A stretch of 50,368 nt of DNA from the NCBI GenBank assembly GCA_002747515.1, contig PDPP01000016.1, forward strand, positions 1 to 50,368, read 5' to 3'. The notes beneath the pieces were generated by a model. That model searched no databases. It was not told the DNA's origin and worked only from the letters and a program-made list of their open reading frames with translations. The translations under genes and the position numbers were made by a program. Shown piece by piece: positions 802 to 28,939 of the stretch (its first letter is position 1; each line of letters begins with the position of its first letter). Origin of the DNA: Candidatus Moraniibacteriota bacterium. Its GTDB lineage: Bacteria; Patescibacteriota; Minisyncoccia; Moranbacterales; GCA-2747515.

Positions 802-1881
802 ATGAACGCTGTTCAAAAGAAGTCTTATTTTTCTAATATTTCTCATCTGAGACTTATTGAAAATAAATCTAGTCGGGGAAATGTGATGAATGGTGAGGAA
901 TTTCATTCGTTATTTGAACAAGCATTGTCGACGTACGACTACGATAATCAACCAAATAAGTTTGTGCGATTAATGCAAATTATTTCTGCTTGGGCCTGCG
1001 CAACGAATTGTGTGCGCATTCTTTTTCGAAAGATATTTATTTCTCAGAGAAAAAGTTTTATGCAGATTCTTTGGGAAATGGGAAGAGATCCAAAGCATTA
1101 CAGTAGCTTCTTTATTGACAGAATAAGCAAGCTTAATCATCATATTAAAGTGGATGCAGCATCTTCAATGGCACTCGATACCATGTATGATTGGGATGAG
1201 AAAATTCGTCCTGTAATCACAAAAGATTCTTGGGCAAATCGATTTGAGAAGTTTTGGTTCGACAATAGCGAAAACCGTCGTTCTCTCGTCAATCGAAAAA
1301 AGATGGTTAATGCTCTCTTGGTTCGTGCAATTGATCATTTTTTGAATGAGCCTGAAGTTCGAATCATCTCTGTTGCTTGTGGTTCTGCGCGTGCTGTAAT
1401 TGATGCAATATTGCATTGCAAGCATCCAAATGTACGTGTTGTGCTTATTGATAGAGATCAAAAAGCTCTTGATAATGCACGTAAAAATATGGAAGCTCAC
1501 GGTATTCGTAACGTAGAATACGTTAAAGGTACCATGCGAAAAATCAGTAAAGTTGCCACATATTTTTCTCCACATATCGTGGAAATGGTTGGGCTTACTG
1601 ATTATCTAACCGTTGAGAGAGCTGCAGATTTTTCAAGGACAGTAAGTGAAGTTCTTGAAACTGGCGGGTTTTATCTCACTGGAAATATCCATAGTAATCC
1701 TGAGAAAATTTTTCTTGATTGGGGATTGCTGTGGCCCATGGTGTATAAAACGCCAGGAGATCTCTTGCGAATTGGCAGGGGTGAGTTTCCAGATAGGAAA
1801 AGAGCTTTCAAAGATGAATTTGTAAAGGTGTTTTGTGAACCTTTAGGGATTCACGGGCTTGTGTTATCTCATAAAGCCTAA
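802..1881 (+). CDS. class I SAM-dependent methyltransferase, substrate unknown
   Basis: IISVACGSARAVIDAI ... VVLIDRDQKALDNARKNM Rossmann/SAM-binding motifs. Confidence 0.65.
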   Translation: MNAVQKKSYFSNISHLRLIENKSSRGNVMNGEEFHSLFEQALSTYDYDNQPNKFVRLMQIISAWACATNCVRILFRKIFISQRKSFMQILWEMGRDPKHYSSFFIDRISKLNHHIKVDAASSMALDTMYDWDEKIRPVITKDSWANRFEKFWFDNSENRRSLVNRKKMVNALLVRAIDHFLNEPEVRIISVACGSARAVIDAILHCKHPNVRVVLIDRDQKALDNARKNMEAHGIRNVEYVKGTMRKISKVATYFSPHIVEMVGLTDYLTVERAADFSRTVSEVLETGGFYLTGNIHSNPEKIFLDWGLLWPMVYKTPGDLLRIGRGEFPDRKRAFKDEFVKVFCEPLGIHGLVLSHKA

Positions 1882-9104: not shown

Positions 9105-10577
9105 ATGAGTACGTATAAAGCAACAATTGGCATGGAGATTCATGTTGAACTAAAGACACAATCAAAGATGTTTTCGAGTGCGCCAAATAAACTTGGCATG
9201 GAAGAAATGCCAAATGATTCTATTGACCCAGTGACGACAGCACAACCAGGTAGTTTGCCAGTGCCAAATAAAGAGGCAATTACGTTTGTGCAAATGGCAG
9301 GATTGGGGTTGAATTGTGAGATTGCACGTAAAAGTAAATTTGATCGTAAGAATTATTTTTATCCAGATTTGCCAAAAGGGTATCAAATTTCACAGTATGA
9401 TATGCCACTATGTGAAAATGGACATATTATGATCGGTGAGAGAAAAATCGGTATCACTCGTATTCACATGGAAGAAGATACTGGTAAATCAACACATCCG
9501 CAGGGTGGACAATACACACTTGTTGACTTAAATCGTGCAGGTGTACCGCTAATGGAACTAGTCACTGAGCCAGATATTACGTCTGGACCAGAGGCACGAC
9601 TTTTTTGTCAAAAGATTCAGCAAGTTTTTCGATATCTCGGTATTGCTGATGCAGATATGGAAAAGGGACAAATGCGATGTGAAGTAAATATTTCATTGTA
9701 CAAAGATGGCGCAGATCCACTCAGTGGGCAAAAAGTAGAAATTAAAAATCTTAATTCATTTAAAGTGGTAGAAAAAGCCATTGACTACGAAATGAAGAGA
9801 CAGGCAAAAGCACTTGATAATGATGAAAAAATAGTACAAGAAACACGTGGTTGGGATGATAAAAAAGGTAAGACAGTGTCACAAAGAAAAAAAGAAAATG
9901 CAAATGATTATCGGTATTTTCCAGAGCCAGATATTCCACCGATGGTTTTTACAGATGCATATGTAGATGAACTCAAGCGTTCACTACCAGAATTACCACA
10001 TCAAAAAGAGATGCGTTTTATGGAAGAATATAATCTGAGCAATGAAAACTGTGATGTAATTACAGCAGACAAAGATACAGCAGATTTCTTTGAACATGTA
10101 GTAAGTGAAATTGTGGATAAGAAAAAATCTGGTGAAATGAAATCTGATGAAAAGAAAGTGATAAAACTTGCAGCAAATTATCTCGTGAGTGAACTGCAAA
10201 AATATCTCATCAAAGAAGAACAAAGTATTACTGATATGAAAATTTCTGCGGAAAATTTTGCCGAGCTCATGGGCATTATTGCCGACGGTACGATTAATTC
10301 ATCAGCAGCGCAGACAGTACTTTATGAAATGTATTATGGTGACGATGACGATCCAAGCCATATCATAGAAGAAAAAAATCTCGCACAAATGTCAGATAGC
10401 AGTGAACTGGATGGTATCGTAGAAAAAGTACTCGCCGCAAATGAGCAATCTGTTACTGATTACAAAGCAGGTAAAGAAAATGCTATCAAATATCTCATGG
10501 GACAAGTCATGAAAGAAAGCCATGGCAAAGCCAATCCGCAAATGGTTATGGAAATGCTACGTGAAAAATTGGTGTAG
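9105..10577 (+). CDS. gatB: Asp-tRNA(Asn)/Glu-tRNA(Gln) amidotransferase subunit B
   Basis: IGMEIHVELKTQSKMFS; DRKNYFYPDLPKGYQISQYD; DYRYFPEPDIPP. Confidence 0.97.
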   Translation: MSTYKATIGMEIHVELKTQSKMFSSAPNKLGMEEMPNDSIDPVTTAQPGSLPVPNKEAITFVQMAGLGLNCEIARKSKFDRKNYFYPDLPKGYQISQYDMPLCENGHIMIGERKIGITRIHMEEDTGKSTHPQGGQYTLVDLNRAGVPLMELVTEPDITSGPEARLFCQKIQQVFRYLGIADADMEKGQMRCEVNISLYKDGADPLSGQKVEIKNLNSFKVVEKAIDYEMKRQAKALDNDEKIVQETRGWDDKKGKTVSQRKKENANDYRYFPEPDIPPMVFTDAYVDELKRSLPELPHQKEMRFMEEYNLSNENCDVITADKDTADFFEHVVSEIVDKKKSGEMKSDEKKVIKLAANYLVSELQKYLIKEEQSITDMKISAENFAELMGIIADGTINSSAAQTVLYEMYYGDDDDPSHIIEEKNLAQMSDSSELDGIVEKVLAANEQSVTDYKAGKENAIKYLMGQVMKESHGKANPQMVMEMLREKLV

Positions 10578-10666
10578 TGTGTAGTGCTTGTATGCGTTTT
10601 ACGAAAAGCACGTATAAAAATATATCGTGACGTGATAATATAAAAGCATAGTAATAGTGATACTTC

Positions 10667-10692
10667 TGGATTCCCGCCTCCGCGGGAATGAC
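10667..10692 (+). repeat. palindromic dispersed repeat A, copy 1
   Basis: tggattcccgcctccgcgggaatgac; same family at 11265-11290 (inverted) and 24378-24403. Confidence 0.9.
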
Positions 10693-10719
10693 TGTTCTCC
10701 ATTCTTTATGCTATGGTAA

Positions 10720-10743
10720 AGACGCGATGAATCGCGTCTCTAC
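10720..10743 (+). repeat. palindromic dispersed repeat B, copy 1
   Basis: agacgcgatgaatcgcgtctctac; inverted copy at 11150-11173. Confidence 0.9.
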
Positions 10744-10764: not shown

Positions 10765-10793
10765 TTGACAAATTTTTAATTATAGTTTATAAT
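10765..10793 (+). promoter_or_regulatory. consensus sigma70-type promoter TTGACA-17-TATAAT driving the intergenic RNA
   Basis: ttgaca 10765-10770, 17-nt spacer, tataat 10788-10793. Confidence 0.85.
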
Positions 10794-10799
10794 TATACC

Positions 10800-11112
10800 A
10801 TGCAGATAAGAAATGGCAAAAAGATTGGTCGCTTGTGGCGACATGCCACATCTGCAAATAAGGCTGCTGTGGCAAGTTGAGCCAATGGTGAGAGAGAAGA
10901 TTGGACCTCTAAAAAAGTCAAAATGGTCCCCTCGCCAGCAGCAGAAAAACTGCCAAAATACCGGAACCGCCCTACGGCTGGACAAAAAGGAGGTGATGCC
11001 TATGATTGCGGTAAATTAAAGTTTTTATAATGTAAAGTGATGCCGCTGGGGATGAAAGCGTCCCCACCAACCCCATGTGATTGCAGGAATTGCACGCATG
11101 GGGTCTTTTTTA
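10800..11112 (+). ncRNA. unassigned structured RNA candidate (~310 nt)
   Basis: perfect promoter, nested helices (TGCAGAT/ATCTGCA, TGGCA/TGCCA, GTCGC/GCGAC), further hairpins, terminator; no convincing protein-coding frame. Confidence 0.65.
11079..11112 (+). terminator. rho-independent terminator of the intergenic RNA
   Basis: ACCCCATG...CATGGGGT followed by CTTTTTT. Confidence 0.85.
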
Positions 11113-11149: not shown

Positions 11150-11173
11150 GTAGAGATGCGATTCATCGCGTCT
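11150..11173 (-). repeat. palindromic dispersed repeat B, inverted copy
   Basis: gtagagatgcgattcatcgcgtct = reverse complement of 10720-10743 with one mismatch. Confidence 0.9.
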
Positions 11174-11264
11174 TTTTCTGTGCATGTCCTAAAATTTCAG
11201 TGTTATTAGTTAAAAATGTAGAGATGTCAGATTGGATTCCGGTATGACGTAAGTGAAAAACAAT

Positions 11265-11290
11265 GTCATTCCCGCGGAGGCGGGAATCTA
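11265..11290 (-). repeat. palindromic dispersed repeat A, inverted copy
   Basis: gtcattcccgcggaggcgggaatcta = reverse complement of 10667-10692 with one mismatch. Confidence 0.9.
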
Positions 11291-11302
11291 GGGAAAATAG
11301 CA

Positions 11303-12256
11303 CTAATCTTTTTGTAAAAAATGGTGTACTTTTTGTAAGGCATCTTTGTGTGTGGTGACATCATGGATGGTGGTGCCGTGTTTTTTCCAGCGGCGGATCC
11401 ATGTGTTTTGTCTTTTGGCGTAGTGTTTGAGGTCTCTGATGGTATTTTCTCGCATTGTGTTATATGTAATAAAGCCACGTACATACTGTGTGCACCATTT
11501 ATATTCTAGTCCAAAGTTTTCTAGTTTTGTCCACGGCATTTTGTATGTAAAATGTGCTTTGTAAATTTCATCAAGTATTCCACTGTCAAACCACGTATCC
11601 ATTCTTTTTTCTATGCGATTATGTAGTACAACTTTTGGATGTATAATAGCCATGATGAGATTTTTATTTGGATCAATAAGTTTTTTTGTGATCTGGGGTA
11701 CATGGCCATATGCTTTTGCAATTTCAATTGCACGAATTATGCGTACAGGATTTTGTGCGTCAACTTTTTGTGCGTACAGAGGATCATATTTTTTTAGTAT
11801 TGCAAGAAGTTTTTCTGTTGAATATGTAGAGAGTTTTTTGCGTAATTTTTTATCTGGTAAAACAGGGGGAAAATCAGTTTTTTCTAAGAGTGCTTGTGCC
11901 CAAAACATCGTACCACCACAAATAATTGGTAGCATATTTCTTGATGCGATATCATCTTTAATTTTTCGTGCTTTTTTGACAAATTTTGCAACATTGTATT
12001 CTGTTGTTGGATGAATGATATCAATCATATAATGGGGAATGCCATCACATATATAGGCTTTTTTTGTATGCGGTCCACGGTTAATAGATGTGGTTAAAAC
12101 ACCAGGTTCTTTGCCTGTGCCAATATCCAAATGACGATAAATTTGTCGCGAATCTGCAGAAATAATCTCACCAGTAAATTTTTGTGCAATTGTGATTGCA
12201 AGATTAGATTTTCCAGATGCTGTCGGTCCGATAATTGTGATAGTTTTTTGTTGCAT
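11303..12256 (-). CDS. miaA: tRNA dimethylallyltransferase
   Basis: TIIGPTASGKSNLAI; GEIISADSRQIYRHLDIGTGK. Confidence 0.95.
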   Translation of the reverse strand: MQQKTITIIGPTASGKSNLAITIAQKFTGEIISADSRQIYRHLDIGTGKEPGVLTTSINRGPHTKKAYICDGIPHYMIDIIHPTTEYNVAKFVKKARKIKDDIASRNMLPIICGGTMFWAQALLEKTDFPPVLPDKKLRKKLSTYSTEKLLAILKKYDPLYAQKVDAQNPVRIIRAIEIAKAYGHVPQITKKLIDPNKNLIMAIIHPKVVLHNRIEKRMDTWFDSGILDEIYKAHFTYKMPWTKLENFGLEYKWCTQYVRGFITYNTMRENTIRDLKHYAKRQNTWIRRWKKHGTTIHDVTTHKDALQKVHHFLQKD

Positions 12257-28616: not shown

Positions 28617-28645
28617 TTGACAAATTATCATATCTTTGCTAGGAT
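28617..28645 (+). promoter_or_regulatory. promoter TTGACA-17-TAGGAT for intergenic sRNA
   Basis: ttgaca 28617-28622, 17 nt, taggat 28640-28645. Confidence 0.7.
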
Positions 28646-28649
28646 TACC

Positions 28650-28840
28650 TACTCTTTACAAAAGAGTAGTATATTAATATGATTCCGTCTATAGAGGTAG
28701 GTGTTTAGGTTCTCTCCTCCTTACCTAAATATCTGCTTATACACGAGCTATAATTATAGTATGTGTTTCTGTGGACGGTGTCATGTTAATCTACAATACA
28801 AGATAAAAACCTCTACATTTTTGTAGAGGTTTTTATTTTT
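28650..28840 (+). ncRNA. intergenic sRNA candidate with anti-SD-like hairpin loop
   Basis: promoter plus terminator bracket ~190 nt; hairpins TACTCTTT/AAAGAGTA and AGGTGTTTAGGT/ACCTAAATATCT with loop TCTCTCCTCCTT. Confidence 0.6.
28805..28840 (+). terminator. rho-independent terminator
   Basis: AAACCTCTACatttttGTAGAGGTTTTTATTTTT. Confidence 0.9.
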
Positions 28841-28939
28841 GAAAAGGAATGTAAGGCTATATAGTTTTTTTGTATCATGCATTTTGATACACCATATTTT
28901 TTTTCAAAAAGAATACCTTTCTTGCTATGCGTTGCTTTC

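Follow-up and report, generated by a model that had tools for sequence, protein, structure and literature searches.

The closest described systems to the locus presented here come from three different contexts. In the STAB-SD of the cry3A mRNA, a Shine-Dalgarno (SD)-like sequence binds the 16S rRNA and blocks RNase J1 but does not direct translation (PMC4113751). Strong SDs are also known from minigenes, such as that of axe-txe (PMC8708949), and extended SDs from leader open reading frames (ORFs) of S. aureus (PMC13009471). Lastly, the REP and REPIN palindromes comprise superfamilies with GTAG- and CGTC-tagged ends (PMC3733652, PMC3116915). Knowledge of small RNAs in Patescibacteria appears to be scant, and a literature search returned no study devoted to them.

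A predicted transcription unit between gatB and miaA

The window, i.e., the whole stretch of 50,368 nt that was analysed, covers the opening 50 kb of contig C39, which belongs to a Patescibacteria genome of 1.08 Mb; 757 kb of this genome (about 70%), read as stretches, underlie the genome-wide counts given below. The candidate unit lies in a gap of 725 nt between gatB (plus strand, ending at 10577) and miaA (minus strand, ending at 11303), both names having been assigned by reading the translations. The original prediction described it as a structured RNA gene with a perfect promoter and its own terminator. An exact sigma-70-type promoter, TTGACA-17-TATAAT (12/12 match), is indeed present at 10765-10793 on the plus strand, and there are 2 such exact sites in the window and 11 in the 757 kb. 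The predicted transcript of about 310 nt (10800-11111, plus strand) would start 7 nt past the -10 hexamer and end in the T-run of the terminator, the predicted start (10799-10801) coinciding with the first base of the helix P1 described below. As for the terminator, the hairpin with its T-run exists, but its start had been placed at 11079, which falls within the loop, since the stem ACCCCAUG/CAUGGGGU is at 11070-11077/11097-11104 and is followed by CTTTTTT (intrinsic terminator, 11070-11111, plus strand). The GC content of the unit is 47%, versus 30 ± 5% in the intergenic regions of this genome. Promoter, start at P1, terminator, and raised GC, taken jointly and leaving fold energy aside, make the transcription unit predicted from the sequence convincing. 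On the opposite strand, an 11/12 promoter-like site (10819-10792, TTGCCA-16-TATAAT with a TG before the -10) overlaps the start of the RNA and is a possible divergent antisense start.

Regarding the fold, the three nested perfect helices originally reported for the 5' domain (10801-10856, plus strand) are present as written: P1 (10801-10807/10850-10856), P2 (10814-10818/10844-10848), and P3 (10828-10832/10838-10842), with A-rich asymmetric internal loops. For the 59-nt segment in isolation, they make up both the minimum free energy (MFE) structure and the centroid (-18.3 kcal/mol; z, -2.6; 3 of 200 shuffles equally good). In the full transcript, the pair probabilities of P1 and P2 are about 0.3 versus about 0.66 for a helix of similar energy, 10844-10850/10868-10874 (10844-10874, plus strand), that excludes them, and this competition predicts a bistable 5' domain. 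The second domain (10863-10944, plus strand) was also found, as a three-way junction closed by GCUGCUG/CAGCAGC that contains a UGGC-GCCA hairpin and the helices GGUGAG/CUCGCC (10887-10892/10931-10936) and GGACC/GGUCC (10903-10907/10925-10929); its energy is -27.8 kcal/mol, and none of 200 shuffles was equally good. The two hairpins said to follow can both be drawn, but they fare differently in the full-length ensemble: GGGGA/UCCCC (11048-11065, plus strand) has a pair probability of 1.0, while CCGG-AA-CCG/CGG-CUGG (10961-10981, plus strand), directly upstream of the SD, is weak (about 0.11). The full-length RNA has a z-score of -3.4 (none of 100 shuffles as good). When 831 intergenic 150-nt segments of the genome are ranked, the 5' part of the RNA comes 99th by z and 25th by energy, a modest position since hairpin repeats are common in the intergenic DNA of this genome. 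Fold stability by itself is thus not convincing, being unexceptional for such DNA.

The unit was held to be none of tmRNA, RNase P RNA, SRP RNA, or 5S rRNA, and the covariance models agree. A cmscan search against Rfam 15 gave no gathering-level match in the whole window, and a permissive scan of the region returned only sRNA41 at noise level (E = 8.1; 15.5 bits versus a gathering score of 45). At the locus itself no match was obtained for 6S RNA, SRP RNA, 5S rRNA, riboswitches, or the other Rfam 15 families. We rejected tmRNA (RF00023), which had no match at the locus and no ARAGORN prediction in the window and is encoded elsewhere (C33:52897-53311), as well as RNase P RNA (RF00010), equally without a match here and with a likely genome copy at C12:32780-33107 (E = 1e-28). 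A protein gene was also discarded, as the overlapping ORFs of 68 (plus strand) and 69 (minus strand) amino acids have no Pfam match.

The extended Shine-Dalgarno and its five-codon ORF

Two features were missing from the original prediction, a hyper-SD with a five-codon ORF and nested inverted repeats around the unit, and together they change its likely nature and origin. The first lies at 10986-11000 (plus strand), where AAAGGAGGTGAT(G)CC offers 12 contiguous and 2 further pairs to the 16S 3' tail of the same genome, GGATCACCTCCTTT. The stretch AAAGGAGGTGAT (10986-10997) is exactly complementary to 12 nt of this tail, and the two additional pairs come after one bulged G. The 16S 3' end of the genome, GGATGGATCACCTCCTTTCT, was recognised by its conserved sequence at the edge of contig C3 (L157 1-40). 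Within the 757 kb, the 12-mer has just two occurrences, this one and the complement of the 16S tail, and the predicted duplex of -22.0 kcal/mol is stronger than those of all 657 gene starts examined (the best being -20.6). Directly behind, at 11002-11019 (plus strand), is the mini-ORF ATG ATT GCG GTA AAT TAA (MIAVN). In the predicted ensemble, pairing partly occludes the SD core, with GGTG 0.15 to 0.3 unpaired.

With the STAB-SD this site shares an SD-like character, the potential to pair with the 3' end of the 16S, and a location in a noncoding stretch (PMC4113751). However, STAB-SD is non-translating and lies close to the 5' end of its long mRNA (PMC4113751), whereas here the SD sits about 185 nt from the predicted 5' end, towards the 3' end of the RNA, and is followed by an ATG. 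The resemblance to minigenes and leader mini-ORFs lies in a very short ORF behind its own extended SD, an arrangement that can hold or recycle ribosomes (PMC8708949, PMC13009471). Unlike those, the ORF described here is free-standing, with a structured region of 185 nt before it and no gene behind.

These comparisons bear on the possibility of a small RNA acting purely in trans, by antisense pairing or by protein binding, in which SD and mini-ORF would be incidental or would serve only to stabilise the RNA, in the manner of STAB-SD in cry3A mRNA. A free-standing unit with a strong promoter and a terminator would suit such a role, and STAB-SD is a precedent for 16S binding by an SD-like sequence in which translation plays no part (PMC4113751). 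Nevertheless, STAB-SD protects the RNA lying downstream of a 5'-proximal site, which the SD of this RNA is not, the start codon follows at a workable spacing, and no target was identified for the candidate. We therefore consider a purely trans-acting RNA unlikely.

Elsewhere in the window (28617-28845, plus strand), a second candidate intergenic unit is located between two minus-strand genes. It combines a TTGACA box with strong hairpins (z, about -7.9), an anti-SD-like loop, CUCUCCUCC, and a terminator, AAAAACCUCUAC..GUAGAGGUUUUUA, and could be a C-rich small RNA.

REP-like brackets and the question of insertion

The nested inverted repeats form two pairs around the unit. In the outer one, a REP-like palindrome of 27 nt at 10666-10692 is 96% complementary to its inverted right copy at 11265-11291. 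In the inner one, a palindrome of 26 nt with a GTAG-type end at 10718-10743 is 96% complementary to the inverted copy at 11150-11175, which is followed by a T-run and, given this, is possibly also a backup terminator. Each of these repeats is itself palindromic and resembles the CGTC- and GTAG-tagged REPs (PMC3733652). They share with REP/REPIN elements the size of 20 to 40 bp, the tagged ends, and the arrangement in inverted dimers (PMC3733652, PMC3116915), but differ in that two palindrome families are nested around a complete candidate RNA gene. The two families have about 12 and 15 copies in the 757 kb, and nowhere else in that 70% of the genome were such inverted pairs seen to nest in this way. 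The outer repeat, GTCATTCCCGCGCAGGCGGGAATCCAG, is found with decayed forms in several clustered copies within an apparent glycosyltransferase coding region (L156 16090-16840, G000:C2), so that these repeats appear to spread into genes.

In G010, a genome that belongs to the same family but to another genus, the two genes are likewise convergent but only 148 nt apart. Considering this shorter gap together with the bracketing, the unit probably arose by insertion of a REP-bracketed block of about 625 bp, although it is present in a single copy, and the G010 gap, coming from another genus, is not a clean empty site. In the gatB neighbourhoods inspected in congeners, the RNA is absent after gatB and other genes are found there. 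In G003 (a Ca. Moraniibacteriota metagenome-assembled genome) and G005, these lie between inverted repeats (L033 3241-3846 and L036 3000-3618), and the gene after gatB is, by its appearance, presumably a DUF559-type endonuclease. With genes bracketed in the same manner as the RNA, the position after gatB is a possible insertion hot spot. On the other hand, the bracketing may be partly coincidental, since REPs are repeated terminator-like elements and another convergent gene pair (L192) has an inverted REP pair enclosing no RNA; there, a copy of the inner repeat forms a terminator-like hairpin directly behind a gene (11406-11435).

This abundance of repeats also raises the question of whether the unit could be a product of chance, that is, intergenic DNA rich in REP hairpins in which promoter and SD are fortuitous. 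REP-like repeats are scattered across the genome, the z-score of the fold is 99th of 831, and homologs are absent from the genomes searched, all of which speak for it. Yet an exact promoter with as few genomic copies as given above, a predicted start at P1, a well-spaced terminator, and the strongest SD found together with an ORF, all within one 310-nt stretch of raised GC, make this explanation very improbable.

Relatives, similar units, and the preferred reading

No full-length homolog was retrieved by blastn from 97 to 132 genomes at the order level, 387 at the class level, and 384 at the phylum level (overlapping sets), nor from plasmid or phage records, and a one-sequence covariance model (R1, 10800-10945) gave a single weak match, inside an ORF. 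The collection of homologous regions for a covariation analysis, suggested along with the original prediction, consequently came up empty among several hundred Patescibacteria genomes, plasmids, and phages. Since homologs with covarying helices were not found, a conserved structured noncoding RNA is not supported. From the claim of a structured RNA gene there remain the promoter, the structured body, the terminator, and the position outside Rfam, but not conservation, and the unit has the appearance of a genuine RNA gene confined to its lineage.

Shorter blastn fragments were rejected as relatives, as those inspected were in genes (L111) or chance-like. The best of them were 22/23 nt around the SD in L003 and about 63 nt at 75% identity, covering a hairpin plus the SD, in L110; we do not claim homology for either, given E-values that amount to about 0.1 to 0.3 once scaled to the number of genomes searched. 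The L110 segment (1380-1560, minus strand, G250:C24) is intergenic, between a small membrane-protein gene and ligA, and contains CCTGCGGCTGGGATGAAAAGGAGGTGAT, reminiscent of the last part of 16S helix 45 with the complement of the 16S tail after it; a GC-rich stretch and a terminator come next. The only segment that the window RNA shares with other genomes is the SD/start region, and the 23 genome-contig matches of AAAGGAGGTRAKGCCTATGMT are mostly unrelated mini-ORF and gene starts, so that a common SD wording is weak evidence for shared descent.

Units with a similar SD do exist in other Patescibacteria. An intergenic RNA candidate is found in L003 (1190-1545, minus strand, G003:C15) and in L097 (5237-5550)/L072 (G046/PEVT01000005), the pair being 78% identical over 310 nt and spanning two families of the order. 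Both sequences have a hyper-SD and an 8-codon mini-ORF (MISIKISV and MLHAMITV), and in their two-sequence consensus fold ten base pairs are changed on both sides yet kept. Like the window RNA, this candidate is intergenic, structured, and without a match in Rfam, and carries AAAGGAGGTrAkGCCTATG and a mini-ORF; L003 has a terminator-like end as well. In contrast to the window RNA, its mini-ORF is at the 5' end with about 300 nt of structure after it, and the similarity is limited to the SD segment of ~23 nt. A link by circular permutation was dropped, as nothing but this segment aligns. Extended-SD mini-ORFs are also free-standing in L124 and L117, and in L132 and L139 they stand with a promoter ahead of genes. 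From this set of units we treat SD and mini-ORF as a recurrent functional module but not as proof of common descent, since the same start element is also placed before IS21-type leaders and unrelated genes of other phyla: AAAGGAGGTGATGCCTATG is found ahead of the leader mini-ORFs of IS21 istA-like genes (L094, L105) and of other accessory genes in unrelated bacteria.

The occurrence of AAAGGAGGTGATGCCTATG-type start elements before leader mini-ORFs makes an orphaned leader the main rival explanation. The unit would then be what is left of a lost mobile-element or accessory gene, a still transcribed 5' regulatory remnant made up of structured sensor, leader mini-ORF, and terminator. The succession of sensor, leader mini-ORF, hairpin, and terminator is indeed attenuator-like, the start element recurs before the mini-ORFs of the IS21 leaders, promoter, extended SD, and mini-ORF recur before Patescibacteria genes (L132, L139), and past the terminator there is no gene on the same strand. 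A leader or attenuator has its regulated gene directly downstream, however, and here the next gene is miaA, convergent and on the opposite strand. Moreover, no remnant ORF was found between terminator and miaA, the similarity to leaders is limited to the SD, and promoter, fold, and terminator are intact, unlike those of a decaying relic. An orphaned leader thus seems somewhat unlikely.

The reading that we favour, tentatively and at rather less than even confidence, is that of a small-RNA gene, acquired or enclosed, complete in itself and specific to its lineage, whose product engages ribosomes as a minigene RNA. The unit would have arrived, or been enclosed, between gatB and miaA in the REP-bracketed block, and a strong housekeeping-type promoter would drive the synthesis of the ~310-nt RNA. 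Its first 145 nt would form the two compact domains, the first of them switching between two helices of similar stability. Pairing of the SD with 12 to 14 nt of the 16S 3' tail would load ribosomes onto the five-codon ORF, and transcription would end after it at the terminator. The 30S subunit might be captured and held, or might initiate and then quickly terminate on MIAVN, and this engagement may protect the RNA, couple the 5' domain to translation, or both. In favour of such a minigene RNA are the exact promoter with its predicted start at P1, the terminator, and the raised GC; the near-unique 12-nt 16S complement, with a duplex stronger than at any gene start examined; the repeat pairs nested exactly around the unit and the shorter gap in G010; and the same extended SD in mini-ORF units of other Patescibacteria. 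Against it are the lack of homologs, the unexceptional fold, the partly paired SD core, and bracketing that is perhaps coincidental.

A broader idea, which we regard as highly doubtful, is that Patescibacteria have a class of free-standing, ribosome-capturing RNAs, composed of a structured module, an SD of ~12 nt complementary to the 16S, and a mini-ORF, that spread on REP-bracketed cassettes and hold or count 30S subunits in tiny, slow-growing cells. If real, the unit described here would offer a tangible system in which to study RNAs that regulate or stockpile ribosomes in reduced genomes, as well as RNA genes transported as cargo between REP palindromes. Should it be no more than an orphaned leader, it would neatly illustrate how such relics can mimic RNA genes.
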